From contig NZ_CP139976.1 of NCBI RefSeq assembly GCF_034424625.1, positions 2,666,001 to 2,730,000 on the forward strand: a stretch of DNA of 64,000 nt, written 5' to 3'. Positions 41,827 through 57,287 of the stretch are shown one piece after another. A model generated the notes under the pieces. It was given only the letters and a program-made list of their open reading frames with translations, did no database searches and had not been told where the DNA came from. The translations under genes and the position numbers were made by a program. Numbering within the stretch: position 1 is the stretch's first letter; each line of letters starts with the position of its first letter. This stretch comes from Janthinobacterium lividum. Lineage in GTDB: Bacteria > Pseudomonadota > Gammaproteobacteria > Burkholderiales > Burkholderiaceae_D.

Positions 41827-43341
41827 ATGAACCAAGCCCTCACCCAAGTCCCTGCCATCCCCCTGCACATCGGCGGCAAGCACCATGCGTCAAGCAGCAG
41901 CGAATGGCGCGACGTCGTCAACCCGGCGACGCAGGAAATCGTCGCCAAGGTGCCGTTTTCCACGCCGGACGAAGTCAACCTGGCCGTCGCCACGGCCAGG
42001 GAAGCGTTCAAGACCTGGCGCAATACCCCGCTGGCCGCGCGCATGCGCATCATGCTCAAGTACCAGCATCTGATCCGCGAAAACATTGGTGCCCTGGCCG
42101 AACTGATCACGCGCGAACACGGCAAGACGCTGCCCGACGCGGAAGGGGAAGTCATGCGCGGCCTGGAAGTGGTGGAGCACGCGTGTTCGATCGCCACCCT
42201 GCAGCTGGGCGAGATTGCGGAAAACGCGGCCACGGGCGTCGATGTCTACAATATCTACCAGCCGCTGGGCGTGGGCGCCGGCATCACGGCGTTCAATTTT
42301 CCCGTCATGCTGCCGTGCTTCATGTTCCCGATCGCTATCGCCTGCGGCAATACTTTTGTGCTGAAACCGTCGGAACAGGATCCGTCTTCGACCATGTACC
42401 TGGTCGAACTGATGTACCAGGCGGGCTTGCCGGCCGGCGTCCTGAACGTCGTGCATGGCGGCGCCGACGTCGTCAACATGCTGTGCGACCATCCCGACAT
42501 CAAGGCCGTGTCCTTCATCGGCTCCACCCATGTGGGCACGCATGTGTACCGCCGCGCCAGCGAATCGGGCAAGCGTGCGCAATCGATGATGGGGGCGAAA
42601 AACCATTGCGTGGTGCTGGCCGACGCCAACAAGGAGCAGGCGATCAATAACCTGATCGGCGCGGCCTTCGGTGCGGCTGGCCAGCGCTGCATGGCCAATT
42701 CCGTCGTGGTGCTGGTGGGCGAGGCGCGCTCCTGGCTGCCGGAAATCGTCGCCCGCTCGCAGGCGCTGAAAGTGGGGCCGGGCAGCGACCGCGATGCCGA
42801 CCTGGGACCGATGGTTTCCAAGGCGGCCATGCAGCGCGCGGAAAAGCTGATCCAGGCAGGCGTGGACGAAGGCGCGCAGTTGCTGCTTGATGGCCGCGGC
42901 CACAAGGTGGCAGGCTACGAGGGAGGCAACTTCATGGGCCCGACGATTTTCTCCAAGGTCCAGGCATCGAACTCCGTCTACACGCAGGAAATCTTCGGCC
43001 CCGCCATGTGCGTGGTCGAAACGGACACGCTGGACCAGGCCATCGCCTTCATCAACGCCAACCCGAACGGCAACGGCACCTCGATCTTCACCTCGTCCGG
43101 CTGGGCCGGGCGCAAGTTCCAGAACGAGATCGATGTGGGGCAGGTGGGCATCAACGTGGCCATTCCCGTACCCGTCGCGTATTTCAGTTTTACGGGGTCG
43201 CGCGCGTCGAAGCTGGGAGACCTGGGCCCGAACGGCAAACAGGCCTTGTACTTCTGGACGCAGACCAAGACCGTCACGGCGCGCTGGTTCGCCCCGGACG
43301 ATGGCGGCAGCGGCGTCAATACCACCATTGCGATGAAATAA
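41827..43341 (+). CDS. mmsA: Methylmalonate-semialdehyde dehydrogenase (CoA-acylating)
   Basis: A 504-residue aldehyde dehydrogenase family enzyme that converts methylmalonate semialdehyde with CoA and NAD to propionyl-CoA, late in valine breakdown. ALDH motifs: GVGAGITAFNFPVMLP (oxyanion and cofactor site), SFIGSTHVG (NAD loop), and the nucleophile Cys in AAGQRCMANS, where the RCMA context is characteristic of MmsA. The glutamate common to hydrolytic ALDHs is replaced by an Asn-type site (GAKNHCVV), fitting acyl-CoA formation. mmsB follows 10 bases after. Confidence 0.95.
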   Translation: MNQALTQVPAIPLHIGGKHHASSSSEWRDVVNPATQEIVAKVPFSTPDEVNLAVATAREAFKTWRNTPLAARMRIMLKYQHLIRENIGALAELITREHGKTLPDAEGEVMRGLEVVEHACSIATLQLGEIAENAATGVDVYNIYQPLGVGAGITAFNFPVMLPCFMFPIAIACGNTFVLKPSEQDPSSTMYLVELMYQAGLPAGVLNVVHGGADVVNMLCDHPDIKAVSFIGSTHVGTHVYRRASESGKRAQSMMGAKNHCVVLADANKEQAINNLIGAAFGAAGQRCMANSVVVLVGEARSWLPEIVARSQALKVGPGSDRDADLGPMVSKAAMQRAEKLIQAGVDEGAQLLLDGRGHKVAGYEGGNFMGPTIFSKVQASNSVYTQEIFGPAMCVVETDTLDQAIAFINANPNGNGTSIFTSSGWAGRKFQNEIDVGQVGINVAIPVPVAYFSFTGSRASKLGDLGPNGKQALYFWTQTKTVTARWFAPDDGGSGVNTTIAMK

Positions 43342-43351
43342 GGGGAAGGCC

Positions 43352-44245
43352 ATGGGCACCAATATCGTTTTCATCGGCCTGGGCAACATGGGCTTGCCCA
43401 TGGCGCAGAACCTCGTGCGGGCCGGCCATGCGGTGACGGGCTTCGACTTGCTGCCGGCCAGCGTGCGGCAGTTTGCCGACGGCGGCGGCCTCGTGTCCGA
43501 TGACCAGGCGGCGGCGATCGGCCAGGCCGACATCGTCATCACCATGCTGCCGGCCAGCCGCCACGTGCTGGGGGCCTACCTTGGGGACGCGGGTATTTTG
43601 GCGCAGGCGCGGCCCGGCACCCTGCTGATCGACTGTTCGACGATTTCCACCGAGGCGGCGCGCCAGGTGGGCCGCGCGGCGCAGGAGAAGGGCATGCCGA
43701 TGCTGGACGCGCCCGTGTCGGGCGGTACGGCGGGCGCCACCAACGGCACCCTGACTTTCATGGTGGGCGGCGAAGAATCCGCGCTGGCGGCGGCGCGGCC
43801 CTACCTGGACGTCATGGGCAAGGCCATCTTTCACGCGGGCGGCTCCGGTTGCGGCCAGACGGTCAAGATCTGCAACAACATGCTGCTGGGGATACTCATG
43901 ATCGGCACCAGCGAAGCCATACGCCTGGGCGTGGCCAATGGCCTCGATCCCAAGGTGGTGTCCGACGTGATGGCGAAAAGCTCGGGCCGCAACTGGACCC
44001 TGGACGTCTACAACCCGTGTCCGGGCGTGGCCGAGAATGTGCCCGCGTCGCGCGGCTACACGGGCGGCTTTGGCGTCGACCTGATGCTGAAAGACCTGGG
44101 GCTGGCCGTGGAAAGCGCCGAGGCGGCGGGCGCCAGCGTGCCGCTGGGCGCGCTGGCGCGCACGCTGTACGACATGCATAGCAAGGCTGGATCGGGCGGG
44201 CTCGATTTCTCCAGCATCTACCGGTTGCAGGATCCGCCGGCATAA
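43352..44245 (+). CDS. mmsB: 3-hydroxyisobutyrate dehydrogenase
   Basis: A 297-residue NAD-dependent beta-hydroxyacid dehydrogenase that oxidises 3-hydroxyisobutyrate to methylmalonate semialdehyde, the substrate of MmsA. The N-terminal Rossmann loop is VFIGLGNMGLPMAQNLV. The substrate region LDAPVSGGTAGATNGTL and the catalytic lysine in GCGQTVKICNNMLLG are intact. It follows mmsA by 10 bases, completing a two-step valine catabolic pair. A strong terminator follows. Confidence 0.95.
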   Translation: MGTNIVFIGLGNMGLPMAQNLVRAGHAVTGFDLLPASVRQFADGGGLVSDDQAAAIGQADIVITMLPASRHVLGAYLGDAGILAQARPGTLLIDCSTISTEAARQVGRAAQEKGMPMLDAPVSGGTAGATNGTLTFMVGGEESALAAARPYLDVMGKAIFHAGGSGCGQTVKICNNMLLGILMIGTSEAIRLGVANGLDPKVVSDVMAKSSGRNWTLDVYNPCPGVAENVPASRGYTGGFGVDLMLKDLGLAVESAEAAGASVPLGALARTLYDMHSKAGSGGLDFSSIYRLQDPPA

Positions 44246-44264
44246 GGCAGCTATTGTGGCGATG

Positions 44265-44291
44265 GCGCTCCTGCGGGAGCGCTTTTTTTTT
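44265..44291 (+). terminator. Rho-independent terminator of mmsB
   Basis: A 7-bp stem GCGCTCC / GGAGCGC with a four-base loop, followed by nine T. It insulates the following five-gene cluster from the mms operon. Confidence 0.92.
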
Positions 44292-44457
44292 GATGCTCGT
44301 CATCCAAACGTGCATGCTGTCAGGAGGATAAGAATATACAATCAGCAACTTGATTGGATGCAAGTTTGATGCAAGATGAATGCTGCGGATCTGGACGCTG
44401 ATTGCGAAAAAACATGCCCGGCAAGGGCCTTGATGAACAGGAAAGACGAATCACCCG

Positions 44458-47400
44458 ATGTTTAAAAAAATACTGGAATTGGCGCAGGGCGTAGTGGGCC
44501 TGGATGAGCACGCGCAATTGAAAAAGGGCTTGCGCGGCCTGGCGCAGATATCGCCTGCGCTGTGGGAGCGCGCCTGCGAGTTCGTTTGCGAAGGGCGTCA
44601 GGAAGGCGTGCTGCTCGATGTGCAGGCGGCGGCGCCGCGCGGCGGCACCTTGCTGGGCAAGCCAGGGCGCCTGTACTCGCATTTTTATACCCATAACATG
44701 CCTAACAAGGATGCGGCACTGGCCAATGAAAGCCTGCGCCACCGGCACCAGTTCTATGCCCAGTCCGATGCGGCGACGCTGGACGTGGCGCTGCTGGTCC
44801 GCTTGGGCAAGCTGCTGCAGGCGGCCGACGGGGGCGACTCGCTGGAGCGCACCGGCGCCGCGGTGCCGCAGTGGCTCGACTACCTGGTCAGCGATGCGCT
44901 GTTCGCCAGTTTTTCCGAGACCCGCGCGCAAGCGACCACGGTCAACCGGCGCGGCTGGGACGTGCTGCTGCTGGCGCGCCTGCTGGCCGCCGATGGCGAG
45001 GCGGAAGAGGGCGCGCTGCAACTGGTGTTCGAGCGGCGCGAATTGAACGAATACGTGCGCGACAACTGCCTGCAGCGCCTGTTGGCGCCCGGCGCGCTCG
45101 ACGCTTACATGCTCGCGCATGCGGCGCTGGTGGAGCACCTGCCGGCATTACTGTCGGCCAGCGGCAAGGCGCAGCTGGCCAGACGCCTGGGGGCCTCGCC
45201 CGCGCTGGCCGACACTTTTGCCGCCGTCCTGGTGCGCCTGGCCGTCGATGGCGGCAAGAGCGTGCGCACCGAAGCGGCGCCCCATCTGGCAGCCATTCCC
45301 GAGGAGCGCAGAGCCACCTTGCTGCAGCAGTGCCTGTTGACGGGCAAGACGGAAGAGCGGGTGCAGGCGGCCGAGCTGTTGGGCCGCAGTCTGGGGCCGC
45401 AGCAGGGGGCGCTGCTGGAACAGGCTCTGGCGCAGGAGACGAGCAAGCCGGTGCAGGCGGCCATCCGCAACGCCTTGTCGTGGCTGGACGCGGCCAGCGA
45501 GGCCGGCGCGGCGGACTTGCCGCTGCCGCCGCTGCCGCCCGCGCCACCGGTGGCGCGCCTGGGCGACGCTGCGCTGCAACTGCTGCAGGCCAATCATGCG
45601 GCGCTGCTGGAAAAGTACCGCGCCGAAGCACGGCAGGAGCGCGAAGACAACCAGCACGCCGAGCACAAGTACGAATGGAAGCAGGAGCGCCTGAAGCGCT
45701 ATGAGACGATCAAGCCGGGCTGGCTGGAAGCGGCCATACGCGTGTTCAATGGCGAGGCAGCGAAGAGCGACGCGCAGTCCCTGCAAAACAACCTAGTGCG
45801 CGAACCGATCGAACTGCAGGGCAAGCTGGCCGCCTTGCCGGACTTTGGCGTGGCGCACATGGCGCGCTGGCTGCTGGCCACGCGGCGCAATATTTTCCAT
45901 TTCTGGCACGATGAATTTTTCCAGCAATGGCTGGCGTACCAGGACCTGTCGACTTTCGACTTGCGCCTGCTGGCGCGCGCCATGCGCGAAGCCGGCGACG
46001 AGCAGGACAGCGTGGCCATGGCCTGCATGGCCAGCAATTGGTGGGGCGCCAAGCCGCAGCAGGTGCTGGCGGCGGACATGGTATGGCCGCTGTTCGCGGA
46101 ACGGCCCGAACTGATCGACCAGGGTCTGGGCTTGCGTGCCGCCGAAAGGCGCCGGGGCGTGGCGCCCGAGCTGGGTCCCACCCTGGAAATATTGGCCACC
46201 TTCCCGGTGCTGCCGGTGCAATGGCTGCCGCGCGTGATGGAGATCGCGCTGGGCGAAGGCAAGCAGCACCGTGCCAGCGCGCAGCAGGTGCTGTCCAGCT
46301 TGCCCGACATCGGCAAGCGCGTGGCCGAGGCGCTGGGATCGGGCAAGCAGGACATGCGCATCGGCGCGGCGCGCTGGCTGACCGACCTCGACTACCGCGC
46401 CGCCATCCCGGCGCTGTACCAGGCGCTGGACAAGGAGGCGCGCGAAACCGTGATCGCCGCGCTGCTGACGGCGCTGGAAAAACTGGGCGAGGACCTGAGC
46501 CCGCGCCTGTCGCCCGAGATTCTGCTGGCCGCGGCGCGCAAGGGCTTGAAGGGCAAGGCGCCCGTCGGCCTGGCCTGGTTCGTCTTCGAGGCGCTGCCCG
46601 CCTGCCGCTGGCAGGACGGTACGCCGGTCGATGCCGACATCATCCGCTGGTGGGTGGTACTGGCCTGTAAATTGAAGGAGCCGGGCGGCAATGCCCTGCT
46701 GCTGCGCTATCTGGGCCTGCTTGACGAGGCAGGCCGCGCCGCCTTGGGCGAGACGGTGCTGCGCCTGTTTATCAACGAGGATTTGCGCGGCCCGAGCCTG
46801 GAAGTGGCGACCGCCGAAGCGCAGGCGCGTGCGCCGCAGGCCTATCAGAGTTACCAGGACCACGCCAGGCGCTATCCCCAGCATTATGCCGCCGAGGGCA
46901 AGATGACCCTGGAGCAGGTATTCGACCAGATCCGCCGCAACAAGATGGCCGAGTACCTGGGCAGCGCCATCGGCGAGAAGGGCATCCTGGCGCTGGCCGC
47001 CCACACGCCAGGCCATGTGGCAATCAGCCTGCTGCAAGCGTATATGCGCGACCATTACCCGCGCCGCGCGCAGATCGAAGCGATGCTCGACGGCCTGGCC
47101 GACGGCTACGACGCGGCCGTGATCCAGTTATTGCTGGGGATCGCGCGGCGCTACCGCACCGCTTCGGTGCAGGAAAAGGCGCGCCTGCTGGTCGAGCGCA
47201 TCGCGCAGGGCAAGGGCTGGAGCCACGACCAGCTGGGCGACCGCACCATCCCGACGGGCGGCTTTGACGATAGCGGACGGCTCGACCTGTCGTATGGCGC
47301 GCGGGTCTTCCATGTGACCCTGGATGGCGCCATGAAACCGCGCCTGCACAACCCTGACGGCAAGGAGATAAAGGCCTTGCCCGAGCCGCGCCAGGACGAA

Positions 47401-48198
47401 TCGCCCGAACTGGCCAAGGAAGCCAAACAGCAGCTAGCCATCTGCAAGAAAGAACTCAAGCAAGTCATCGCCATGCAGACGGCACGCCTGTACGAAGCCA
47501 TGTGCGGGGGACGTGTCTGGCCGGCGCAGGAGTGGCGCGACTACCTGCTTGGCCACCCGATCGCGGGCCGCCTGGTGCAGGCGCTGGTGTGGATACGGGA
47601 AGATGACGCAGGCAGTACCCTGCTGCGCCCCAGCGACGACGGCAGCCTGCTGGACGCGGACGACGAGGAAGTCGCCCTGAACGAAGGCAGCCGGCTGCGC
47701 CTGGCGCACGCCTCGCTGCTGGATGCGCCGCAGATCGCCGCCTGGCAGCGCCATTTCAAGGATTACAAGGTCAAGCCCCTGTTCGAGCAGCTGGCGCACC
47801 AGTTGCCCGATGCCTCGCTGATGGCGGGCCGGCACATCGCGGACCGCGAAGGCTGGGTGGGCGACACCTTCGGCCTGCGCGGCGCGTTCGGCAAGCACGG
47901 CTATCAGCGCGGCCAGGCCGAGGATGGCGGCGTCTTCACCGAATATCACAAGGATTTCATCAGCGCCGGCCTGCGCGCCGTGATCGAATTTTCCGGCAGC
48001 AGCCTGCCCGAGGAACTGATGGCCGCGGCCCTGAAAACGCTGCAGTTCTATCCCTTGCCGCGCTCCTGGCGCGACGAGGCGGTGCCGCTGGCCGACGTGC
48101 CGTCCGTGCTGCTGGCCGAAACCTATGCCGATTATCTGGCGGTGTCGAAGGCGTGCGGCGGCTATGATGCGCAGTGGGAAAGTAAAATGCCGTGGTAA
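44458..48198 (+). CDS. DUF4132 protein, MolR/YehI-like, 1246 aa
   Basis: A very large cytoplasmic protein with no signal peptide or membrane segment. Residues about 200-360 show HEAT-like alpha repeats (VRTEAAPHLAAIPEERRATLL, RVQAAELLGRSL), and more occur between 580 and 700. The C-terminal part from about residue 1005 (TARLYEAMCGGRVWPAQEWRDYLLGHP, here in pieces, then VQALVWIRED) is the DUF4132 domain of E. coli YehI and MolR. Such proteins are scaffolds of unknown role. The gene begins a run of five near-contiguous genes; the MoxR ATPase gene starts 14 bases after its stop. The start ATG 44458 has a weak ribosome site. Confidence 0.85.
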   Translation: MFKKILELAQGVVGLDEHAQLKKGLRGLAQISPALWERACEFVCEGRQEGVLLDVQAAAPRGGTLLGKPGRLYSHFYTHNMPNKDAALANESLRHRHQFYAQSDAATLDVALLVRLGKLLQAADGGDSLERTGAAVPQWLDYLVSDALFASFSETRAQATTVNRRGWDVLLLARLLAADGEAEEGALQLVFERRELNEYVRDNCLQRLLAPGALDAYMLAHAALVEHLPALLSASGKAQLARRLGASPALADTFAAVLVRLAVDGGKSVRTEAAPHLAAIPEERRATLLQQCLLTGKTEERVQAAELLGRSLGPQQGALLEQALAQETSKPVQAAIRNALSWLDAASEAGAADLPLPPLPPAPPVARLGDAALQLLQANHAALLEKYRAEARQEREDNQHAEHKYEWKQERLKRYETIKPGWLEAAIRVFNGEAAKSDAQSLQNNLVREPIELQGKLAALPDFGVAHMARWLLATRRNIFHFWHDEFFQQWLAYQDLSTFDLRLLARAMREAGDEQDSVAMACMASNWWGAKPQQVLAADMVWPLFAERPELIDQGLGLRAAERRRGVAPELGPTLEILATFPVLPVQWLPRVMEIALGEGKQHRASAQQVLSSLPDIGKRVAEALGSGKQDMRIGAARWLTDLDYRAAIPALYQALDKEARETVIAALLTALEKLGEDLSPRLSPEILLAAARKGLKGKAPVGLAWFVFEALPACRWQDGTPVDADIIRWWVVLACKLKEPGGNALLLRYLGLLDEAGRAALGETVLRLFINEDLRGPSLEVATAEAQARAPQAYQSYQDHARRYPQHYAAEGKMTLEQVFDQIRRNKMAEYLGSAIGEKGILALAAHTPGHVAISLLQAYMRDHYPRRAQIEAMLDGLADGYDAAVIQLLLGIARRYRTASVQEKARLLVERIAQGKGWSHDQLGDRTIPTGGFDDSGRLDLSYGARVFHVTLDGAMKPRLHNPDGKEIKALPEPRQDESPELAKEAKQQLAICKKELKQVIAMQTARLYEAMCGGRVWPAQEWRDYLLGHPIAGRLVQALVWIREDDAGSTLLRPSDDGSLLDADDEEVALNEGSRLRLAHASLLDAPQIAAWQRHFKDYKVKPLFEQLAHQLPDASLMAGRHIADREGWVGDTFGLRGAFGKHGYQRGQAEDGGVFTEYHKDFISAGLRAVIEFSGSSLPEELMAAALKTLQFYPLPRSWRDEAVPLADVPSVLLAETYADYLAVSKACGGYDAQWESKMPW

Positions 48199-48212
48199 GC
48201 AAAGAGAGCACA

Positions 48213-49319
48213 ATGATGACGGAACAACATGATGATAGCCAGGTGGTGCGCCGCAGCGCCGAACAGCGCTACGCCGGCGAGCTGGGACGCCTGAAAGCGG
48301 CCGATACCGAGCCGCGCCCGGAGGGCTGGCAGCTGTCGCCGCGCGCGGTGCGCCGCTTCATCCTGGGCGACGCGGCGCTGCAAGTGAGCCGCAAATTCTA
48401 TGGCGACGATCCGCTGGTCGACCGCGCCATCGTCACCCTGATGGGCCATCAGGGGCTGATGCTGGTGGGCGAACCGGGTACGGCCAAGTCGCTGCTGTCC
48501 GAATTGCTGGCGGCGGCCATCAGCGGCGACTCCGCGCTGGCGATCCAGGGCACGGCGGGCACCACCGAAGACCATATCAAGTATTCGTGGAACTACGCCT
48601 TGCTGCTGGCCGAAGGACCTAGCCGGCGCGCACTGGTGCCGTCGCCCTTGTTCCAGGCCATGGAAGCGGGCAAGCTGGTGCGCTTCGAGGAAATCACGCG
48701 CTGCGCGCCCGAGATGCAGGATGTGCTCATTTCACTGATGTCGGAAAAGCAGCTGATGATTCCGGAACTGGGCGGCGACGCGCGCGTACACGCGCGGCGC
48801 GGCTTCAATATCATCGCCAGCGCCAACTTGCGCGACCGCGGCGTGCATGAAATGTCGTCGGCGCTGAAACGCCGCTTCAACTTCGAAACCGTCAAGCCGA
48901 TCCGCGACCATGGTTTCGAAGTCGAGCTGGTGATGCAGCAGCTGCAGCGCGAACTGGACGCCATCGGCGCCGCCGTCGTTGTCGGGCGTGACGTGGTCGA
49001 ACTGCTGGTGACCACGTTCCAGGAACTGCGCGCCGGCCAGACCCGCGAAGGCACGGCCATCAAGACGCCGGAGGCGGTGATGTCGAGCGCCGAGGCGGTC
49101 AACCTGGTCTATGCGGCCTCGCTCGAGGCGCTGCATTTCGGCGACGGCACCTTGCGCCCGCGCGAACTGGCCAACCAGTTGCAAGGCGTGGTACTGAAGG
49201 ACAACGCCGATGACCTCAAGCGCGTGCGCCATTATTTCGACACGGTGGTGCGCGAACGCGGTCGCCGCGACGATCTCTGGAAAAGCTTCGGCGACGCGGC
49301 GCGCAAGCTATGGCTGTAG
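48213..49319 (+). CDS. MoxR-type AAA+ ATPase (YehL-like)
   Basis: A 368-residue AAA+ ATPase. Walker A GEPGTAKS at 86-93, Walker B LVRFEE at 155-160, sensor 1 in NIIASANLRDRG (199-210), and an arginine finger in SSALKRRFNF. MoxR ATPases act as remodelling machines, usually with a VWA protein, as in RavA-ViaA; here the VWA partner is the fourth gene. The start is ATG 48213 or 48216; an in-frame GTG at 48192 overlaps the previous stop. Its own stop overlaps the DUF5682 start by 10 bases. Confidence 0.92.
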   Translation: MMTEQHDDSQVVRRSAEQRYAGELGRLKAADTEPRPEGWQLSPRAVRRFILGDAALQVSRKFYGDDPLVDRAIVTLMGHQGLMLVGEPGTAKSLLSELLAAAISGDSALAIQGTAGTTEDHIKYSWNYALLLAEGPSRRALVPSPLFQAMEAGKLVRFEEITRCAPEMQDVLISLMSEKQLMIPELGGDARVHARRGFNIIASANLRDRGVHEMSSALKRRFNFETVKPIRDHGFEVELVMQQLQRELDAIGAAVVVGRDVVELLVTTFQELRAGQTREGTAIKTPEAVMSSAEAVNLVYAASLEALHFGDGTLRPRELANQLQGVVLKDNADDLKRVRHYFDTVVRERGRRDDLWKSFGDAARKLWL

Positions 49320-51781
49320 TGCAGCCGGACTTGCCGGCCGGCGTGGCTGCCGCGCGCGCCAGGCTGTTCGAGCATGGCTTGTACTTCGCGCCGGTGCGCC
49401 ACCATAGCCCGGCGTGCGCCCATGCATTGCAGGCCATGCTGCGCGAATTGCGCCCGGCCGCCGTGCTGATCGAGGGGCCGGAAGGCTTCACGGACATGCT
49501 GCCCCTGTTGCTGGACGAACGCACGCGACCGCCCGTGGCCCTGTTGTGCCAGACGCCGGCGGCAGGCGAAGAAGGGGCGCGCACGGTATCGGCGTTTTTC
49601 CCGTTTTGCGATTACAGTCCTGAGTGGGTGGCGCTGCGCGAGGGGGCGGCCGCGCAGGCGCAGCTGGCCTTCATCGACCTGCCGTGGCAGGCGCGCGCGG
49701 GCAGGGCAGATGCGCAGGACGATGCCGAGGCGCGCAGCCTGATGGCCGAGCGCTACCTGGCACACAGCACCTATCTGAATACCCTGGCCGCGCGCGCCGG
49801 CTGCCGCGACCAGGACGAACTATGGGATCACCTGTTCGAAGCGCGTTCGCGCGCCGCGCTGGCGGACTGGCGCAGCATGTTTGGCGACGTGTTTTCCTAT
49901 TGTGCCATGGCCCGTCTCGATTACGAGCCGGCGGTGCTGGAAGCGGAGGGCAGCCTGCCGCGCGAACGCCACATGGCGGCGCATATTGCCCGCTGGCGCA
50001 AGCAGGTGGACGGCCCCGTGGTGGTGGTCACCGGCGGCTTTCATACCAGCGCGCTGATCGAACTGGTCGCCGCCGCTCCCGCCCACGCCGTGCCGGCCGC
50101 CGCCAGCCCCAGCTGGCTGATACGCTACAGCTTTGATCGGCTCGATGCACTGACTGGCTATGGCGCGGGCATGCCGGCGCCCGCCTATTACCAGGCCGTC
50201 TGGGACGCCCTGCAATCGCCGGCGGACGGCGATCATCAGCTTGCCGTCGCCGTGGACCAGTTGACCATGCTGGCAAGGCACAGCCGGGCGCGCGGCTTGC
50301 AGGAGCGTATTTCCACGGCGGAGGTACAGGCGGCCGTGCTGCAGGCGGCCAGGCTCGCCGTGTTGCGCGGCCATGCGGGGCCAGGCCGCCAGGATGTGCT
50401 TGACGCGATGGCTTCCTGTTTTGTCAAGGGCGCCATCGACGACGGCATGCAGGGCCTGTTCGACGATGTGCGGCGCCAGATGACGGGCAGCCGGCTGGGC
50501 GACGTGCCGCCGTCGGCCGGTTCGCCGCCGCTGGTGGTGGATGCGCGCCTGGCTGCGCATCGTCACGGCTTGCGGCTGGACGACGGCGACACGCGGCTGG
50601 CGCGGCTGGACCTGTACCGCAAGGACCGCCACCGCCGGCGCAGCCGGTTCATTCATCTGATGCAGTATCTCGATACGGGCCTGGCGCGCTGGCAGGGCGG
50701 CCCGGATTTCATGGCCGGCAGCCGGTTGGAACTGCTGTTCGAGGAATGGACGTATGCGTGGACGCCGCTGGTCGAAGCGCGCCTGATCGAGCTGTCCGCC
50801 GATGGCGCCACCCTGGCCGAGGTGGCGCTGGCGCGGCTGCTGCGCGAAGAGCAGGCGCTGGGCGCCGCGGGCCAGGCCCGTTCGGCCGGCAGCGCCGCCG
50901 CCCTGCTGGTGCGTGCCTGCGTGGTGGGATTGCATGAACGTCTACCCGGCCTGCTGGCGCTGTTGTCGCGCCATCTCGATGACGATGCCGATTTCTCCTC
51001 CGTCGTCGCCTGCGGCCATGCGCTGGTGACCCTGTGGCGCGCGCGCGAGCCGCTGGGTGTGCGCGAGCATCCTGGTGTGCTGGCGTTGATGCGGCGCGTC
51101 TGGCCGGCCGCGCTGTTCCTGCTGTCCGGTCTGGCCGATACGGGGATGGAAGGGGAAAGCGCGCAAGTGGGGCAGTTGCTGGCATTGCGCGAATTTGGCC
51201 GCGCCGCGCGCAGCGCCTTGCCTGCGCACGAGGCGGACCTGGCCTTCGAGGCCGGCGACCTGCACCAGCGCCTGCACGCCCTGACGGCGACGCGCCACTG
51301 CGCGCCCGGCATTTGCGGCGCCGCCGCCGCGCTGCTGTTCCTCGATGGCGCCTGGGGCGAACAGGATTTATCGCGTTTGCTGGAACAGCGCTTCGGCGCC
51401 GGCGCCACGCCGCAGGATGCCGTGCGCTTCCTGTCGGGCCTGATGGCCGCCGCGCCTGAATTGCTGCTGACGCAGCCGGGGTTGCGGCGCAGCTTCAACA
51501 CCCTGGTCGGCAGCTGGGACGAGGCCAGTTTCATCCATTATCTGCCCGATTTGCGCTTGGCCTTCACGGGTTTGAAACCGCAGGAGACGAGCGACCTAGC
51601 CGAGGCGCTGGCGGTGCTGAACGGCGCCGCGCCGGACGCCTTGCAGGCTGAATTCCATTGCGACGTCAGCGAAGACGAGATGCTGGCCGGCGGCCGCCTG
51701 AACGCGGCGCTGGCCGCCTGCCTGGAGCGCGATGCGCTGTCCGGCTGGCTGGATATTTCAACGGAGAAGCCGCATGGCTGA
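49310..51781 (+). CDS. DUF5682 family protein (YehM-like), 823 aa
   Basis: The conserved N-terminus APVRHHSPACA (27-37) and AVLIEGPEGFTD identify DUF5682, together with a VVVTGGFHTSAL segment near residue 240. The His-rich HH and the GFHT motif could bind a metal or act in a hydrolase site, as in the distantly similar erythromycin-esterase/ChaN-type folds; that is inference. The remaining 500 residues are mostly alpha-helical. It overlaps the ATPase gene by 10 bases and the VWA gene by 8 bases, which suggests translational coupling. Confidence 0.85.
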   Translation: MAVVQPDLPAGVAAARARLFEHGLYFAPVRHHSPACAHALQAMLRELRPAAVLIEGPEGFTDMLPLLLDERTRPPVALLCQTPAAGEEGARTVSAFFPFCDYSPEWVALREGAAAQAQLAFIDLPWQARAGRADAQDDAEARSLMAERYLAHSTYLNTLAARAGCRDQDELWDHLFEARSRAALADWRSMFGDVFSYCAMARLDYEPAVLEAEGSLPRERHMAAHIARWRKQVDGPVVVVTGGFHTSALIELVAAAPAHAVPAAASPSWLIRYSFDRLDALTGYGAGMPAPAYYQAVWDALQSPADGDHQLAVAVDQLTMLARHSRARGLQERISTAEVQAAVLQAARLAVLRGHAGPGRQDVLDAMASCFVKGAIDDGMQGLFDDVRRQMTGSRLGDVPPSAGSPPLVVDARLAAHRHGLRLDDGDTRLARLDLYRKDRHRRRSRFIHLMQYLDTGLARWQGGPDFMAGSRLELLFEEWTYAWTPLVEARLIELSADGATLAEVALARLLREEQALGAAGQARSAGSAAALLVRACVVGLHERLPGLLALLSRHLDDDADFSSVVACGHALVTLWRAREPLGVREHPGVLALMRRVWPAALFLLSGLADTGMEGESAQVGQLLALREFGRAARSALPAHEADLAFEAGDLHQRLHALTATRHCAPGICGAAAALLFLDGAWGEQDLSRLLEQRFGAGATPQDAVRFLSGLMAAAPELLLTQPGLRRSFNTLVGSWDEASFIHYLPDLRLAFTGLKPQETSDLAEALAVLNGAAPDALQAEFHCDVSEDEMLAGGRLNAALAACLERDALSGWLDISTEKPHG

Positions 51782-52907
51782 GAATCTGGACAATCAGGCG
51801 TTGCTGCGCCGCTGGCGCCTGATACTGGGGCGCTACGCGCAGCCGCTGCAGGGCGCGGCCTGGTCTGACAATGATGGCCGGCTCGATGCCAGCCTCGATT
51901 ACCTGTATGGCCGCGAGTATAAGCGCAAGGGCATGCTGCGCGCCGGCGGCGGTGGTTCGCTGGACCCCAGCCAGCTGCGTGCCATCGACTGGCTGGCGCA
52001 GGCGCGCAAGCTGTTTCCGCAGGATGTCTACGAGCGCGTGCAGGGCCACGCGATCGAGCGCTATGAACTGAGCGGCTTGCTGCGCGATCCGGCGGTGCTG
52101 GCCAGCCTGGAGCCGAACCAGGCGCTGGCGCGCGCCCTGATCGGCATGCGCGGGCGGCTCGGCGCGGACATGCACGACGCGGTGCGCGCGGTGATACGGC
52201 GCGTGGTCGAGGAAATCACCGAGCGCCTGCGCAAGGATTTCGTCAACGCGGTGGTGGGGCGGCGCAACCGCTTTCGCCGCACGCAGATGAAGAGCACGCA
52301 GAATTTCGACTGGCGCGCGACCATTGCCGCCAACCTGAAACACTACGATATGGCCAGCCGCCGACTGCTCATTGCGCATCCCATCTTCAATGCGCGCGTC
52401 AAGCGCAGCCTGCCGTGGGACGTCATCCTGTGCGTCGACCAGAGCGCTTCGATGATGGATTCGGTGATCTATGCGGCGGTGGTGGCCGGCATCCTGTCCG
52501 GCCTGCCGGCGGTCAACGTGCGGCTGGTGGTGTTCGACACCAGCGTGGTGGACTTGACGCACCTTGCCGCCGACCCGGTCGAGGTGCTGCTGACGGTGCA
52601 GCTGGGCGGCGGCACGAATATCGGCCGCGCGGTGCAGTACTGCGAGCAACTGGTGAGCAATCCGCAGCGCACGGTACTGGCCCTGATCAGCGATTTCGAG
52701 GAGGGCGCGCCGCCAGGGCCGTTGCTGGCGGCGCTCAGGCGCATGGCAGAGTCGCGCGTCACCCTGCTGGGCCTGGCCGCGCTCGACGAGCGCGCGCAGC
52801 CTGCGTATGACCACGGCATGGCGCAGCGCCTGGCGGATCAGGGCATGCACGTGGCGGCACTGACACCGCAGCACTTTGCCGAATGGCTGGCTGGGGTGAT
52901 GGGATGA
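51774..52907 (+). CDS. VWA domain protein (YehP-like)
   Basis: A 377-residue protein whose C-terminal half is a von Willebrand factor A domain. The metal site (MIDAS) is complete: DQSAS at 222-226, Thr281 in GGGTN, Asp307 in ISDFEEG. The N-terminal 200 residues are helical and basic (RKDFVNAVVGRRNRFRRTQMK). VWA proteins of this kind bind MoxR ATPases and recruit substrates. The start ATG 51774 has GGAG upstream and overlaps the DUF5682 stop. The SWIM gene begins at its stop (ATGA). No signal peptide, so it is cytoplasmic. Confidence 0.92.
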   Translation: MAENLDNQALLRRWRLILGRYAQPLQGAAWSDNDGRLDASLDYLYGREYKRKGMLRAGGGGSLDPSQLRAIDWLAQARKLFPQDVYERVQGHAIERYELSGLLRDPAVLASLEPNQALARALIGMRGRLGADMHDAVRAVIRRVVEEITERLRKDFVNAVVGRRNRFRRTQMKSTQNFDWRATIAANLKHYDMASRRLLIAHPIFNARVKRSLPWDVILCVDQSASMMDSVIYAAVVAGILSGLPAVNVRLVVFDTSVVDLTHLAADPVEVLLTVQLGGGTNIGRAVQYCEQLVSNPQRTVLALISDFEEGAPPGPLLAALRRMAESRVTLLGLAALDERAQPAYDHGMAQRLADQGMHVAALTPQHFAEWLAGVMG

Positions 52908-54910
52908 GCTGGCACGCCGTGTACCGCAGCTTTGACGACGACAGCCTGGCGACGCTGGCCAACGCTGGCCTGCTGCGCCGCGCCCTGAAAGATGTCGAGG
53001 CGGGCAAGGTGGGCTGGCAGGCTGACGCGGGAGGCGCCCTGGTCGCCGACGGCCAGCATGTGTCGCTCGATGCGGGGGGGCCGCAGGAGGGCCGTTGCGA
53101 TTGCCCGGCGCCCGGCATCTGCAAGCATATCCTGGCCGCCGCCGTGTGGCTGCGCGAACTGCCGCAAGACAGCGCGCAGGACGGAGTGCCGGCCAGCGTG
53201 CAGGACGAAGTGCTGGCGCTCGACAGCGCCGCCGTGTGCAAGCAGGCTGGCAAGCCGGCGGTGCGCCAGGCGCTGGCCTGGCTGGCTGAAGGCGACCAGG
53301 CGGACATCACCATCGTCAATGCGCGACTGCAGATCGAGTTGCCCCTGTTGAAACTGGGCTGCAGCTATCTGCGCGGCGCCGGCGTCGAGGCCATGGTGTC
53401 CGATACGCCGGCCGCCATCCGCAAGGCGCTGCACCTGTATGCGCTGGCCTGTGTCTGGCGCAAGCATGGCCGCGAGTTTGCCTGGCCGACGGGCCTGACG
53501 ATGGCGCCTGCCGACGCAGCGCCAGGGATGAGTACGTCCGAACTGGTGTTCGTGGCCCAGGTGCGGCGTTTGCTCGGTGAACTGTACGACAATGGCTTGT
53601 CGCATGCCAGCGCGATTGCCGCTGGCCAGTTGCGCGCGCTGACCATGTCGGCGCGCACTGAAAGCCTGCCCCGCCTTGCAGCCATGCTGCGTGGCCTCGG
53701 CGGTACGCTGGACCTGCTCGTGCGGCGCGACTGCCACGCCAGCGAACGTCAGGCATTTGACGAGATGGCGGCCATCTGCGCCTTGTGCGCGGCGCTCGAA
53801 CACGCGTCTGGTGCGCTATTGCAGCGCTTGCGCGGGCAGGCGCGGCGCAGCTTTGATGCGGCCGGAGATGCGCCCCTGGACCTGCTGCCGCTGGGCGCGT
53901 ATTGGTGGGAAACGCGCGGCGGCGCGCACGGTCTGACCTTGTCGTTCTGGCAGCATGCAGAGGAGGGCGAGGGACGGATCGTGCAGGCCGTGCTGGCGCG
54001 GCCCGACGCCAGCGACCGCTCGTTTACGCGCGAATCGGCATGGGATGCGAGCAGCCTGTGGCAGGGCGCTGGCAGCGCCCGGCATATTTGTGAGGCGGGC
54101 TTACAGTTGGCAGGCGCGTCCTGGGCCGAGGATGGGCGCCTGGCTATGGACAGCCAGGTGCGCGCCAGTGCGGCGCCACTGTGGGCGCTCGACGATGCGC
54201 GCTGGCAGCGCCTGGGTTTTGACGACTGGACGGCACTGGCTGCCTTCATGAGTGACAGCGTCGGTTTGGCGCCGGATCCCATCGATTGCGTGGTGCTGCG
54301 TCCGGCGGCCGTGGCGCGGCCGCAGCTTGACGAAGTAGGTCAGCGGCTCGATTGGCAGGTGTTCGATGCCTGCGGCACCGTTCTGGACTTGCAGATACCG
54401 GCAGTGCCGACCCTGCGTCCGCGCATCGCCCGGCTGCAGGCGGCCGTGGCGGATGGCGCCGATATCCGGGCCGTGCTGGCCAGCCGCGCGCGCGACGACT
54501 CAGGTGGCTGGCAACCGGTGACGCTGCTCATCGCCAAGAATGGCAAGCTGCGCGTGGTATCGCTCGATTTCGAGATCGATGCGGGCAAGCTGCCGTCGGC
54601 GCTGGCGCGCTTTTTCAAGAGCCTTGGAGGCACCAGTCTGGCGCCGTCCATGCCGCAGCAAGCCTCGGCGGCATCGCGGGTGCTGGTCCAGGTGCTCGAC
54701 CTTCTCGCACTGCAGGCGCGTAGCGGACGCCCACGACTGGAAGCCGAACTGGCCGGCGAACTGGCGCAGCATGGCGCCACCTTGCGTGCGCTGGGCCTGG
54801 ACTTGCCGGCCGGCCTGCTGGCGGCCTACGTCAGCGCGCCGCGCGCACCTGAAGCCTTGCGCCTGGCATATGTCTGCACGACGTGCATCGCGCTGGAGGC
54901 GGCAGGGTAG
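52904..54910 (+). CDS. SWIM zinc-finger protein (YehQ-like), 668 aa
   Basis: Contains a SWIM zinc finger near the N-terminus: C-x-C-x5-C-x-H with Cys65, Cys67, Cys73 and His75 (CDCPAPGICKH). SWIM fingers bind DNA or proteins. The rest is a long alpha-rich region without a recognisable catalytic motif; segments such as LAYVCTTCIALE at the C-terminus add a further CTTC pair. It is the last gene of the five-gene cluster, overlapping the VWA gene by 4 bases, and converges on the DUF1090 gene after 12 bases. The order and domains match E. coli yehI-L-M-P-Q. Confidence 0.85.
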   Translation: MSWHAVYRSFDDDSLATLANAGLLRRALKDVEAGKVGWQADAGGALVADGQHVSLDAGGPQEGRCDCPAPGICKHILAAAVWLRELPQDSAQDGVPASVQDEVLALDSAAVCKQAGKPAVRQALAWLAEGDQADITIVNARLQIELPLLKLGCSYLRGAGVEAMVSDTPAAIRKALHLYALACVWRKHGREFAWPTGLTMAPADAAPGMSTSELVFVAQVRRLLGELYDNGLSHASAIAAGQLRALTMSARTESLPRLAAMLRGLGGTLDLLVRRDCHASERQAFDEMAAICALCAALEHASGALLQRLRGQARRSFDAAGDAPLDLLPLGAYWWETRGGAHGLTLSFWQHAEEGEGRIVQAVLARPDASDRSFTRESAWDASSLWQGAGSARHICEAGLQLAGASWAEDGRLAMDSQVRASAAPLWALDDARWQRLGFDDWTALAAFMSDSVGLAPDPIDCVVLRPAAVARPQLDEVGQRLDWQVFDACGTVLDLQIPAVPTLRPRIARLQAAVADGADIRAVLASRARDDSGGWQPVTLLIAKNGKLRVVSLDFEIDAGKLPSALARFFKSLGGTSLAPSMPQQASAASRVLVQVLDLLALQARSGRPRLEAELAGELAQHGATLRALGLDLPAGLLAAYVSAPRAPEALRLAYVCTTCIALEAAG

Positions 54911-54922
54911 TCGCGGCTTTGG

Positions 54923-55312
54923 TCAGGGTTGTTGCGCCTGCAGGGCCGTCAACTCGGCCCTGGCTTTTTCCAGCTTGCCTTCCAGCTTGGCGATCTTCTT
55001 CGGTTCCTTGTTGGCTTCCTGGGCCAGGCGCAGCGAACGCTCCGTCTGGTTCACCTTCGCCTGCGCCTTGACGATCTTCTTGTTGTGGCGTTCGACCAGG
55101 GTACTGTCGCGGCAGTGGGCGTTGACTTCGTCGAGCGCGCGCGTGAGGCCCGCGACCTTGTCGGACAGGCCCTGTTCCTGCGCCTGGCGCAATTCGCTGC
55201 GGATGCTTTCGCGCTTGGCGGCGCAGCCGGCCAGCTGGGTGTCGGCGGCGCTGGCGCCCACGGAGGCTGCGGCGAGCAGCAGGGTCAAGGCGGTTGTGGC
55301 GAGGCGGTTCAT
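54923..55312 (-). CDS. DUF1090 family periplasmic protein, 129 aa
   Basis: The signal peptide MNRLATTALTLLLAAASVGASA is followed by a mature protein beginning ADTQLAGCAAKRESIRSELRQA, the DUF1090 pattern. Two cysteines (GCAAK and HCRDS) could form a disulfide. The C-terminal half is a charged coiled coil (KAQAKVNQTERSLRLAQEANKEPKKIAKLEGKLEKARAEL, in pieces). E. coli relative: YqjC. The start ATG 55312 follows AGGA; the 35 codons upstream in frame are not coding. Function unknown. Confidence 0.88.
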   Translation of the reverse strand: MNRLATTALTLLLAAASVGASAADTQLAGCAAKRESIRSELRQAQEQGLSDKVAGLTRALDEVNAHCRDSTLVERHNKKIVKAQAKVNQTERSLRLAQEANKEPKKIAKLEGKLEKARAELTALQAQQP

Positions 55313-55446
55313 GGCGTTCCTGTGTAAGTGGTGGGCTCGTGCAATGTAAGCCTGCCGGCTTGCCCTGTCAAACTTCTTGTGCAGTGCGCGCCTGTCTGGC
55401 ATGGCATCGGCTACCATGCGTGTTTTCTTCTTTCCGACACCGCCGC

Positions 55447-56289
55447 ATGCCCAAGAAATTCCTCTTGCTGATTCCTTTCCTGCTGCCGTTGCCGCTCCTG
55501 GCCCAGACCTCGCCCACCTTGCTCGACCTGCAGCTGCTCGCCATCAAGGCGAGGGCTGATGCGGCTAGCCATAGCCCGGAAAGCATCGCCGAGTTTGAGC
55601 AGGCACGGCGCGCGGCCGAAGCGGGCGACGTGGAGGCGCAGCTGGACCTGGCGCGCATGCTGCAGCTGGGCGTCGGCACGCCGCAAGATACGGCGCAGTC
55701 GATGGCCTGGATACGCAAGTCGGCCGAAGGCGGCTATGCGCCGGCACAGTCGGCTTTGGGGGTGGCCTATACCTTGGGCGGCAAGGTGCCCATCGACCGC
55801 GTGCATGGCGAATACTGGCTGCGCAAGGGCGCGGCGCAGGGCAATGCAGAGGCGCAAACCATCCTGGCGCTGGAATTCATCGATGGCGACAGCAGCGCCG
55901 AAGAGCAGGCGCTGGCCATCCAATGGCTGAAGAAGGCCGCACTCGAAGAACACTTTACTCCTGCCTATAACGCGCTCGGTGAGCACCTGATGCGCACAGC
56001 CGCCGACGAGCAGGATCGCGGCGAGGCTTTCCACTGGTATGACAGATCGGCGCGTGAAAAGGAGCCGGCCGGCATGCGCAACCTGGCCCGCGCGCACGAG
56101 CTGGGCCTGGGCGTGGCGCAGTCGGACAAGTGGGCCTTGGTCTGGTACGAGCGGGCGGGGTGGAGCGGCGACGTGCCCGCCATGCGGCGCATGATCGAGG
56201 TGTATGTCAAAGGCGAACTGGGACAGGCTGCGAATGCCGAAGACGCGGCCGAGTGGCGCGGCAAGCTGGCCGAGAAGGAAAAGAAATGA
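55447..56289 (+). CDS. Secreted Sel1-repeat protein A, 280 aa
   Basis: An exported repeat protein with a signal peptide (MPKKFLLLIPFLLPLPLLAQ). Sel1-like (TPR-type) repeats are visible: EAQLDLARMLQLGVGTPQD, SMAWIRKSAEGGYAPAQSALGVAYTLGG, EYWLRKGAAQGNAEAQTILALEF, and a later WYERAGWSGDVPAMRRMIEVY. Such repeats mediate protein contacts, often in the periplasm. It overlaps the next gene by 4 bases and is its paralogue, so the pair is a tandem duplication. ATG 55447 begins the signal peptide; the upstream frame is non-coding. Confidence 0.9.
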   Translation: MPKKFLLLIPFLLPLPLLAQTSPTLLDLQLLAIKARADAASHSPESIAEFEQARRAAEAGDVEAQLDLARMLQLGVGTPQDTAQSMAWIRKSAEGGYAPAQSALGVAYTLGGKVPIDRVHGEYWLRKGAAQGNAEAQTILALEFIDGDSSAEEQALAIQWLKKAALEEHFTPAYNALGEHLMRTAADEQDRGEAFHWYDRSAREKEPAGMRNLARAHELGLGVAQSDKWALVWYERAGWSGDVPAMRRMIEVYVKGELGQAANAEDAAEWRGKLAEKEKK

Positions 56290-57287
56290 GAACCATGCTG
56301 TTTGTATTGAGCCTGGCCCTGGCGCAGCCCGTGCTGGCGCAGCCGGCGTCCACCAAGGAACCGCGTCAGCATCCGGCGCTGGCCGAATTCGATATGTCCG
56401 GCCTCGACGACATGCGCGCAAGGGTGCGGGCCGTGATCGACCGTCCCGCCGACCTGTCGCCGGACAAGGTGGCAGCCTTCGGGAAGGCGCGCCTGGCTGC
56501 GGAAGGGGGAGACACGGCCGCCCAGCTGGAGCTGGCGCAGATGCTGCACGGCGGCGAAGGCACGCCGCGCGACTATGACGCCGGCCTGGCGTGGATGCGG
56601 AAATCGGCCGAAGGCGGCTATGGTCCGGCGCAGGCTTTCCTCGGCGTGGCCTACACGCTGGGGCAGGGCATGGCCATCGACCGCAAGCTGGGCGAATACT
56701 GGTCGCGCAAGGGCGCCGCGCAAGGCGTGGAGCTGGCCAACTTCACGCTGGCCATGCACTTTGAAAATATCCACAGCAGCCCGGCAGAACAGGCGCATGC
56801 GCTGCACTGGCTGAAGTTCTATGCCGAAAACGGCTTTATCTATGCCTACAATGAAATCGGCTACCGCCTGATGATGACGGCCAGGGACGAGGCGCAGCGC
56901 AAGGAAGCGTTCACCTGGTACATGAAGGCGGCCAAGGCGCTTGACCCGCCCGGCTTGAACAATGTCGCGTACTCGTATGAAGTGGGGCAGGGCGTGCCGC
57001 AGAGCGACGAGGCGGCCCTGGGCTGGTATGAAATGGCCGCCATCGCCAAAAGTCCGCCGGGGCAGACGGGTTTTGCGCGGCTGCTGGAACAGGGCCGTGG
57101 CGGCCCCACCCGGCAAGGGCCGGCGCCCAAGCCTTTCGCGCTGTACCTGCTGGCGGCGAAGCAGGGCGACGCGGAAGCCATCGAACGGCTGGTCAAGGTG
57201 TACGATAAGGGCGAGCTGGAACAGGCGGCCGACCCGGCGCAAGCGGCACTGTGGCGCGAAAAGCTCAGGCTGGCCAAGACTCCCTGA
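56286..57287 (+). CDS. Secreted Sel1-repeat protein B, 333 aa
   Basis: Close paralogue of the preceding gene, starting in its stop codon (ATGA). Signal peptide MRTMLFVLSLALAQPVLAQ. Sel1-like repeats: AAQLELAQMLHGGEGTPRD, LAWMRKSAEGGYGPAQAFLGVAYTLGQG, EYWSRKGAAQGVELANFTLAMHF, LGWYEMAAIAKSPPGQTGFARLLEQG, YLLAAKQGDAEAIERLVKVY. It has one more repeat region than its neighbour and a longer inter-signal linker. Function unknown; probably a periplasmic scaffold. Confidence 0.9.
   Translation: MRTMLFVLSLALAQPVLAQPASTKEPRQHPALAEFDMSGLDDMRARVRAVIDRPADLSPDKVAAFGKARLAAEGGDTAAQLELAQMLHGGEGTPRDYDAGLAWMRKSAEGGYGPAQAFLGVAYTLGQGMAIDRKLGEYWSRKGAAQGVELANFTLAMHFENIHSSPAEQAHALHWLKFYAENGFIYAYNEIGYRLMMTARDEAQRKEAFTWYMKAAKALDPPGLNNVAYSYEVGQGVPQSDEAALGWYEMAAIAKSPPGQTGFARLLEQGRGGPTRQGPAPKPFALYLLAAKQGDAEAIERLVKVYDKGELEQAADPAQAALWREKLRLAKTP

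Follow-up and report, generated by a model that had tools for sequence, protein, structure and literature searches.

We analysed a stretch of 64,000 nucleotides of Janthinobacterium lividum (contig NZ_CP139976.1, positions 2,666,001 to 2,730,000; hereafter the window), in which five genes at 44458-54910 encode a HEAT-repeat protein with a DUF4132 domain, a MoxR-family AAA+ ATPase, a DUF5682 protein, a VWA protein and a SWIM zinc-finger protein. The listing of open reading frames (ORFs) confirmed all five on the + strand, where a preliminary description of this DNA had placed them. The block and its parts are the following (window coordinates).

44458..48198, + strand: HEAT-repeat protein with a DUF4132 domain, 1246 aa; DUF4132 part at 47359-47802
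48213..49319, + strand: MoxR-family AAA+ ATPase, YehL-like; likely start 48213, with GTG 48192 as an alternative
48468-48491, 48678-48695 and 48861-48878, + strand: Walker A, Walker B and ALKRRF motifs of MoxR, respectively
49310..51781, + strand: DUF5682 protein, YehM-like, 823 aa
49382..50209, + strand: TraB/PrgY-like (TIKI superfamily) putative hydrolase domain of DUF5682, ~residues 25-300
Within that domain: candidate active-site residues H31, E55, D123, R218, E219 and H245
50297..51778, + strand: C-terminal region of DUF5682, for which the comparisons made gave no relative
51774..52907, + strand: CoxE-type VWA protein; likely start 51774
52437-52451, 52605-52619 and 52686-52706, + strand: stretches holding the VWA metal ion-dependent adhesion site (MIDAS) residues
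52904..54910, + strand: SWIM zinc-finger protein; likely start 52904
53096-53128, + strand: SWIM finger CDCPAPGICKH
44264..44291, + strand: intrinsic terminator at the left end of the block, an 8-bp stem (44264-44283) followed by 8 T
44246..44457, + strand: left end of the block, with the terminator and a presumed promoter/leader; the exact edge lies between 44220 and 44246
54926..54927, no strand: right boundary of the block, from empty sites

The DUF4132 and MoxR genes are separated by 14 bases, and the next three junctions overlap by 10, 8 and 4 bases if the likely starts are used. The overlaps had been described before and hold; what they suggest is translational coupling rather than the fixed stoichiometry that had been read from them. 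The terminator reported on the left is present as well. The G+C content is 68% in the block and 65% in the window, and DUF4132 and DUF5682 have one match each in the host genome. The DUF5682 protein shares 99% identity with one from J. lividum (P0006). Neither a sigma-70 consensus on the + strand nor a CTGTN8ACAG box was found in the 44246-44457 leader, and an Rfam scan of 43300-55500 gave nothing above the gathering score.

The domain content predicted earlier was borne out by Pfam, with matches to DUF4132 (E 7.5e-35), AAA_5 in the MoxR protein (E 1.1e-35), DUF5682 (E 4.7e-102) and VWA_CoxE in the VWA protein (E 7.5e-53). HEAT_2 in the DUF4132 protein (26.1 bits, cut-off 27.7) and SWIM (17.6 bits, cut-off 19.6) are below their cut-offs; the CxCx5CxH motif of the SWIM finger is intact all the same, and CxC..CxH is present in 77 of the 79 SWIM homologues examined. 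In NCBIfam, none of the five proteins matched a model above its cut-off. The Walker A and B motifs of MoxR and the metal site of the VWA protein (DxSxS..T..D) are both intact, as had been stated. Walker A is kept in 87 of 88 MoxR homologues, and each of the MIDAS residues D236, S238, S240, T295 and D321 is at least 97% conserved among 61 sequences. An ATP-driven machine built on MoxR and VWA, as was initially suggested, is supported as the likely theme.

We then investigated the distribution of the five genes across bacteria. GTDB genomes were searched with DUF5682 alone, which gave at least 590 pattern stretches, and the best 80 of at least 575 relatives were kept as loci, a set in which close kin of the window are favoured; their flanks were annotated with home-made profiles. 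Sixty-one loci are fully flanked (at least 8 kb before and at least 7 kb after DUF5682), and in 59 of these all five genes lie within a stretch of ~22 kb, with the DUF4132 genes on the opposite strand in one locus (L070). The two exceptions have MoxR only (L058) or none of the other genes (L059). Among the 19 cut loci, nine contain all five genes, nine contain some and one (L080) contains DUF5682 alone. The 80 loci, several of which come from metagenome-assembled genomes (MAGs), belong to Pseudomonadota, Bacillota, Actinomycetota, Planctomycetota and Verrucomicrobiota, with a single Acidobacteriota (L059) and a single Bacteroidota locus. Among 398 genomes of the host's phylum, DUF5682 is found in 14, DUF4132 in 11 (nine shared with DUF5682) and DUF5691 above the cut-off in six (six shared), two sub-cut-off DUF5691 matches in genomes without DUF5682 having been dropped. 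All 14 genomes with DUF5682 (host included) have DUF4132 or DUF5691, versus two of the 384 others (Fisher p = 5e-24). These two have a DUF4132-DUF7737 protein, and the 15-20 kb taken around its genes gave no match to the other cassette profiles. The co-occurrence of homologues on which the preliminary description had staked its grouping is therefore found, in the loci as in the phylum.

Gene order was read on the DUF5682 strand in 95 loci, namely the 80 above, 14 further loci and Escherichia coli. The order of the window, DUF4132-MoxR-DUF5682-VWA-SWIM, is found in 53. In others DUF4132 comes last (10 loci) or before a final SWIM (seven), VWA-SWIM comes first (four), or the order is SWIM-DUF5691-MoxR-DUF5682-VWA (six); the remaining 15 are partial, cut or single. 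While these genes change place, MoxR stands immediately before DUF5682 in all 89 loci that have MoxR, suggesting that DUF5682 is its natural client or co-enzyme. In the window, the MoxR, DUF5682 and VWA genes are contiguous. A Micrococcales MAG contig (L092:3-4157) has one 1385-aa frame that spans DUF5682 and VWA, possibly a natural fusion, although an internal start is also possible.

The profiles place DUF5691 instead of DUF4132 in six loci (L019-L024), and in four of these (L019, L020, L022 and L024) Pfam identifies SWIM and DUF5691 as the two genes preceding MoxR. In profile comparison, the kinship between the SWIM proteins of both types extends outside the finger (pair E 7e-6, probability 84%), and a HEAT-like stretch is weakly common to DUF4132 and DUF5691 (probability 28%).

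The invariant residues of DUF5682 are clustered in its N-terminus, which made us suspect an active site. In an alignment of 79 rows (A2: the window, 67 of the 80 loci and 11 database proteins), the first 290 residues hold 24 of the 32 invariant columns. The invariants include R30, H31, H32, E55, E105, D123, E177, R202, R218, E219 and H245, all kept in a 22-row alignment (A1) that takes in the DUF5691 type and E. coli. We compared DUF5682 with profiles of TraB/PrgY/GumN (PF01963) and ChaN (PF04187), using block-shuffled profiles as nulls. The early TraB/PrgY alignments used the longest frame through each match; they gave scores of 27.9 against mixed TraB (null maximum 18.4 of 60) and 32.1 against six PrgY-like rows, one of which (L136) is evidently in a wrong frame. 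Our main PrgY profile comprises 15 sequences (14 found by search, plus L126) whose rows were chosen by motif or taken from protein records. It matches the DUF5682 N-terminus over 197 columns with a score of 43.2 (pair E 4e-5, HHalign probability 70%), while the best of 100 block-shuffled profiles scored 24.7. The two motif halves match PrgY separately and in register, at 26.5 (null maximum 22.1 of 100) and 44.5 (21.1 of 99). As controls against the same profile, GumN, of the same Pfam family as PrgY, scored 88.8, and the DUF5682 C-terminus, VWA, MoxR, DUF4132, DUF5691 and both SWIM families scored 14.6-22.1.

The aligned residues agree with this match. The PrgY invariants H26, E50, D125, R197, D198, M201, G222 and H225 correspond to H31, E55, D123, R218, E219, M222, G242 and H245 of DUF5682. 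The GxxH / E / GxxH residues are in register, and the first motif is RHHSP in DUF5682 versus GTxH, with the His aligned. A His-Glu spacing of 24 occurs in 89 of 93 DUF5682 sequences (two have 29 and two were unread) and in 13 of 14 PrgY sequences (the pattern missed one). DUF5682 residues ~25-300 thus appear to be remotely homologous to the TraB/PrgY putative hydrolases of the TIKI superfamily, a domain that the preliminary description had not seen and that is new here. The likeness consists of a profile match of ~200 columns and the conserved H..24..E, D, R-D/E-x-x-M and GxxH. Unlike TraB/PrgY, DUF5682 adds a C-terminal region of ~500 residues, in which the PrgY profile found no match, and has MoxR and VWA genes as neighbours. 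TIKI enzymes have a common 2His/2Glu catalytic set (PMC6254334), and Tiki/TraB proteins are termed metalloproteases or potential metalloproteases (PMC12329661).

Several observations weigh against this assignment or against its extension to the whole block. A narrow, mostly halomonad PrgY alignment lowered the probability to 30% (E 5.6e-4, 229 columns), although in the same register. The whole DUF5682 domain scored 21.9 against GumN and 17.9 against ChaN; its first motif half was below the nulls (GumN 11.4 versus 15.0, ChaN 7.8 versus 14.6), while its second was above them (GumN 22.1 versus 16.3, ChaN 17.4 versus 14.4). ChaN, although published as a TIKI member, reached 17.0 against the PrgY profile; genuine but distant relatives thus escape the method, which cannot give DUF5682 an exact position. 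Nor does a TIKI fold imply catalysis, since PMT is described as being without the catalytic set (PMC6254334). In addition, orphan DUF5682 genes in a Blastocatellia MAG (L059:9989-12436) and a Planctomycetaceae MAG (L080:5628-8180) keep the invariant residues with the other genes not nearby; together with L058, which has MoxR alone, they indicate that DUF5682 may work without the rest. Separately, ChaN was rejected as the nearest TIKI relative of DUF5682, because its score barely exceeds the null maximum (17.5) and the first half is under the null. PDB matches of the DUF5682 profile were left unused: their best E is 3e-4, 11 of the 12 come from ATP synthase b subunits, and they lie at C-terminal profile positions ~498-640 and look like an effect of helix composition.

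We tentatively propose, as a reading that seems plausible if somewhat short of probable, that the block encodes one machine: a chaperone pair of MoxR and VWA would gate a TraB-like hydrolase or bring it to maturity, with the HEAT and SWIM proteins as scaffold. MoxR presumably forms a hexameric ring and would pair with the VWA protein as a chaperone; the VWA metal site would grip a peptide and MoxR would remodel the partner with ATP, as in the common scheme of MoxR-VWA pairs, where the metal site captures a client peptide and the ring remodels it (PMC7159879). The partner would be DUF5682. Its first ~300 residues make up the TraB/PrgY-like domain with the conserved His/Glu/His set, which makes it a probable hydrolase that would most likely act on peptides. 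MoxR-VWA may gate, load or mature DUF5682, and the SWIM protein may serve, together with the HEAT protein of either type (DUF4132 or DUF5691), as scaffold and for targeting. Here we infer complex formation, catalysis, ATP gating, the substrate and the scaffold role. The probable hydrolase label and the constant MoxR-DUF5682 order would turn a gene set without an assigned function into a specific, testable mechanism. MoxR-VWA chaperones have chiefly been associated with the assembly of complexes and the insertion of cofactors (PMC7159879), and the mechanism, if true, would add a hydrolase-gating mode to them.

Four MoxR-vWA ternary conflict systems (VMAP, iSTAND, FtsH and beta-propeller) have been described (Kaur et al. 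2020, PMC7159879). The present block resembles them in joining a MoxR-VWA pair to a further constant partner, but differs in that the partner is the TraB-like DUF5682 protein. Scanning the five proteins with Pfam and NCBIfam gave none of their third components (bpMoxR, 23 bits versus a cut-off of 27). SWIM, WGR, YehL, yehM, TraB and DUF4132 are not mentioned in the main text of PMC7159879, and six terms for the cluster are likewise missing from a later paper of the same group. It is conceivable, though we regard this as doubtful, that the block represents a MoxR-vWA class apart from these four, in which the chaperone pair gates a cytoplasmic TraB/PrgY-type peptidase, the HEAT scaffolds (DUF4132 or DUF5691) are interchangeable and the SWIM finger chooses the target. 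Such a class would provide regulated proteolysis in at least Pseudomonadota, Actinomycetota, Bacillota and Planctomycetota, and in most E. coli.

Alternatively, the block might be a cofactor- or metal-insertion machine like CoxD-CoxE, in which MoxR-VWA matures a metalloenzyme and DUF5682 acts not as a hydrolase but as an insertase or as a heme/metal-binding helper. The CoxE family assignment of the VWA protein fits this, as CoxD-CoxE and Mg-chelatase are MoxR-VWA pairs for metal insertion (PMC7159879). The conserved His/Glu/Asp residues of DUF5682 could also bind metal, and the TIKI relative ChaN (Pfam name Cofac_haem_bdg) is filed as haem-binding. However, DUF5682 matches TraB/PrgY better than ChaN, and most loci do not share a sixth gene: the largest groups of neighbouring genes cover 12 and 10 of the 95 and are generic-looking, as judged without a domain test. 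We consider metal insertion unlikely.

Returning to the machine proposed above, we investigated its inheritance in the genus by searching 40 Janthinobacterium genomes with DUF5682 only. It is found in 15, of which 13 are of the window type (host included) and two (G433 and G436) of the DUF5691 type. All 12 other window-type carriers have the five genes, and in each of them one and the same 3-hydroxyisobutyrate dehydrogenase gene lies 5-16 kb upstream of DUF5682 on its strand. Of the 27 genomes lacking the window type, eight were examined (seven non-carriers and G433). All eight have a clean empty site, joining window 44220/44231 directly to 54927 with a flank identity of 88-95%. The terminator is missing from these empty sites and hence belongs to the block. 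Taken together, the carriers and the empty sites indicate that terminator, leader and five genes are either all there or all missing as one piece between two convergent genes. The block ends (44151-44460 versus 54801-55000) have no common direct or inverted repeat of nine bases or more.

Synonymous divergence (dS) of the cassette was compared with that of a neighbour gene in the seven of the 12 carriers that had the neighbour in the stretch. Against the distant G420 and G412, the neighbour is at ~0.7 and the cassette genes are at 0.39-0.72; against close carriers the values are 0.22-0.31 and 0.07-0.31. In G411 the divergence of the cassette (0.07-0.16) is below that of the neighbour (0.23), possibly a mark of recombination. 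The similar values for cassette and neighbour argue, on the whole, that the block descended vertically in the genus and was lost as a whole, and against a recent transfer. The omega values in the 12 congeners (0.06-0.30 across the five genes) indicate purifying selection, with the strongest constraint on MoxR (0.06-0.12) and the weakest on SWIM (0.18-0.30) and DUF4132 (0.15-0.28). Three carriers (L189, L201 and L202) have an additional DUF4132-like stretch in the block, with ~67-73% DNA identity.

The preliminary description had matched the block to E. coli yehI, yehL, yehM, yehP and yehQ, which holds for the families and their order but not as simple orthology. The K-12 cluster yehI-yehK-yehL-yehM-yehP-yehQ (NC_000913.3) has the five families in the same order; it differs in the inserted yehK and in the WGR and DUF4132 genes upstream. 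In BLAST comparisons, identity to E. coli is 51% for MoxR and 43% for VWA nearly end to end and 30% for DUF5682, while DUF4132 is aligned over 308 C-terminal residues only and SWIM over 67. In a quick DUF5682 tree, YehM is in a different part, among WGR-bearing loci. This position and the partial DUF4132 and SWIM alignments argue against direct orthology of all genes. YehL is one of seven MoxR AAA+ subfamilies, and the MoxR-VWA gene link is in print (PMC3893208). The window MoxR is likewise encoded near a VWA gene and, of the two E. coli MoxR proteins compared, is nearest YehL (E 9e-116, versus 6e-5 for RavA); no feature compared distinguishes it from the YehL subfamily. Several DUF4132 frames are found in the E. 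coli and Gilliamella loci.

By sequence coverage, the yehL-yehQ region has a match in 5301 of 5426 E. coli genomes and at least 80% of it is present in 5162; it is nearly core in this species. It is dispensable in some E. coli, as the genome-reduced strain DGF-298 is reported to lack, among other sequence, part of molR through yehQ (PMC10652928), and 184 isolates of one sublineage are reported to have an insertion in the DUF4132 region (PMC9334617). In openly licensed literature, of which the relevant passages were covered (subscription papers being outside the scope), we found no function for the yeh genes, nothing on the function of the cluster under DUF4132, and no treatment of DUF5682 or of DUF4132 together with MoxR and VWA.

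Phage defence, which the preliminary description had conjectured beside stress, would make the block an anti-phage or other conflict system akin to the MoxR-vWA ternary systems (PMC7159879), but it found little support. Compatible with it are the description of those four related systems, the patchy spread in the phylum and in Janthinobacterium noted above, the presence or absence of the whole block at a single site, the additional DUF4132 paralogues in some carriers and the occurrence on plasmids. Thirty-four of 72,556 plasmid records match, so the cluster can sit on plasmids; among the 30 matches listed, 11 exceed 1 Mb (several are clearly chromosomes) and 19 are 77-918 kb, including four E. 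coli records of 181-393 kb. On the other hand, the yehL-yehQ region is near-core in E. coli, PADLOC gave no usable match (two at E 7e-4), and 45 stretches of IMG/VR contigs contained no relatives; these three results led us to rank an anti-phage role lower. Mostly vertical inheritance in the genus and the absence of a hypervariable effector among the genes seen also speak against it. In a scan of flanking ORFs (106 of 112 picked, each the longest within 2.5 kb and some perhaps not genes), 57 PADLOC families were matched at E 1e-10, the commonest in two of the 106, without a control set; this counts as a weak argument against defence.

Viral sequences were also inspected. The sole phage match (L206; MT835988.1, an unverified faecal scaffold) has MoxR-DUF5682-VWA beside DUF5716/DUF5717, MgsA-like and deacetylase genes, and these neighbours suggest that it is probably bacterial DNA. 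The PHROGs families phrog_20839, phrog_30700, phrog_31592 and phrog_29006 match DUF4132, DUF5682, VWA and SWIM, indicating that some records counted as viral carry relatives of the cluster. Overall, we regard a conflict system as improbable; the distribution is more in keeping with a conditional role in stress or maintenance than with dedicated phage defence.

We consider a response module linked to DNA damage or nucleic acids to be equally improbable. The E. coli-type clusters contain WGR domains, and CTGGATAAAATTACAG (L002:4450-4465), just upstream of the WGR gene yehF, is a LexA-box-like sequence. The SWIM finger, for which nucleic-acid targeting had been suggested initially, would also suit such a module, as would the report that Deinococcus DUF4132/WGR genes are induced on DdrO depletion, where a link of MolR to the LexA regulon is also mentioned (PMC8533742). 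However, WGR is found in only four of the 95 loci, the window contains no strict SOS box, and upstream of 87 gene groups we counted nine loose boxes versus 6.1 expected and no strict ones versus 0.25 expected; without a clear enrichment, SOS regulation was rejected as a general feature.

Two further observations concern neighbouring genes. In Massilia sp. YIM B02769 (L033:3569-4903), a TerD and vWA-TerF protein adjoins the cluster, which hints at a link to Ter stress systems. In the window, two related Sel1-repeat ORFs lie downstream of the block at 55294-57287.

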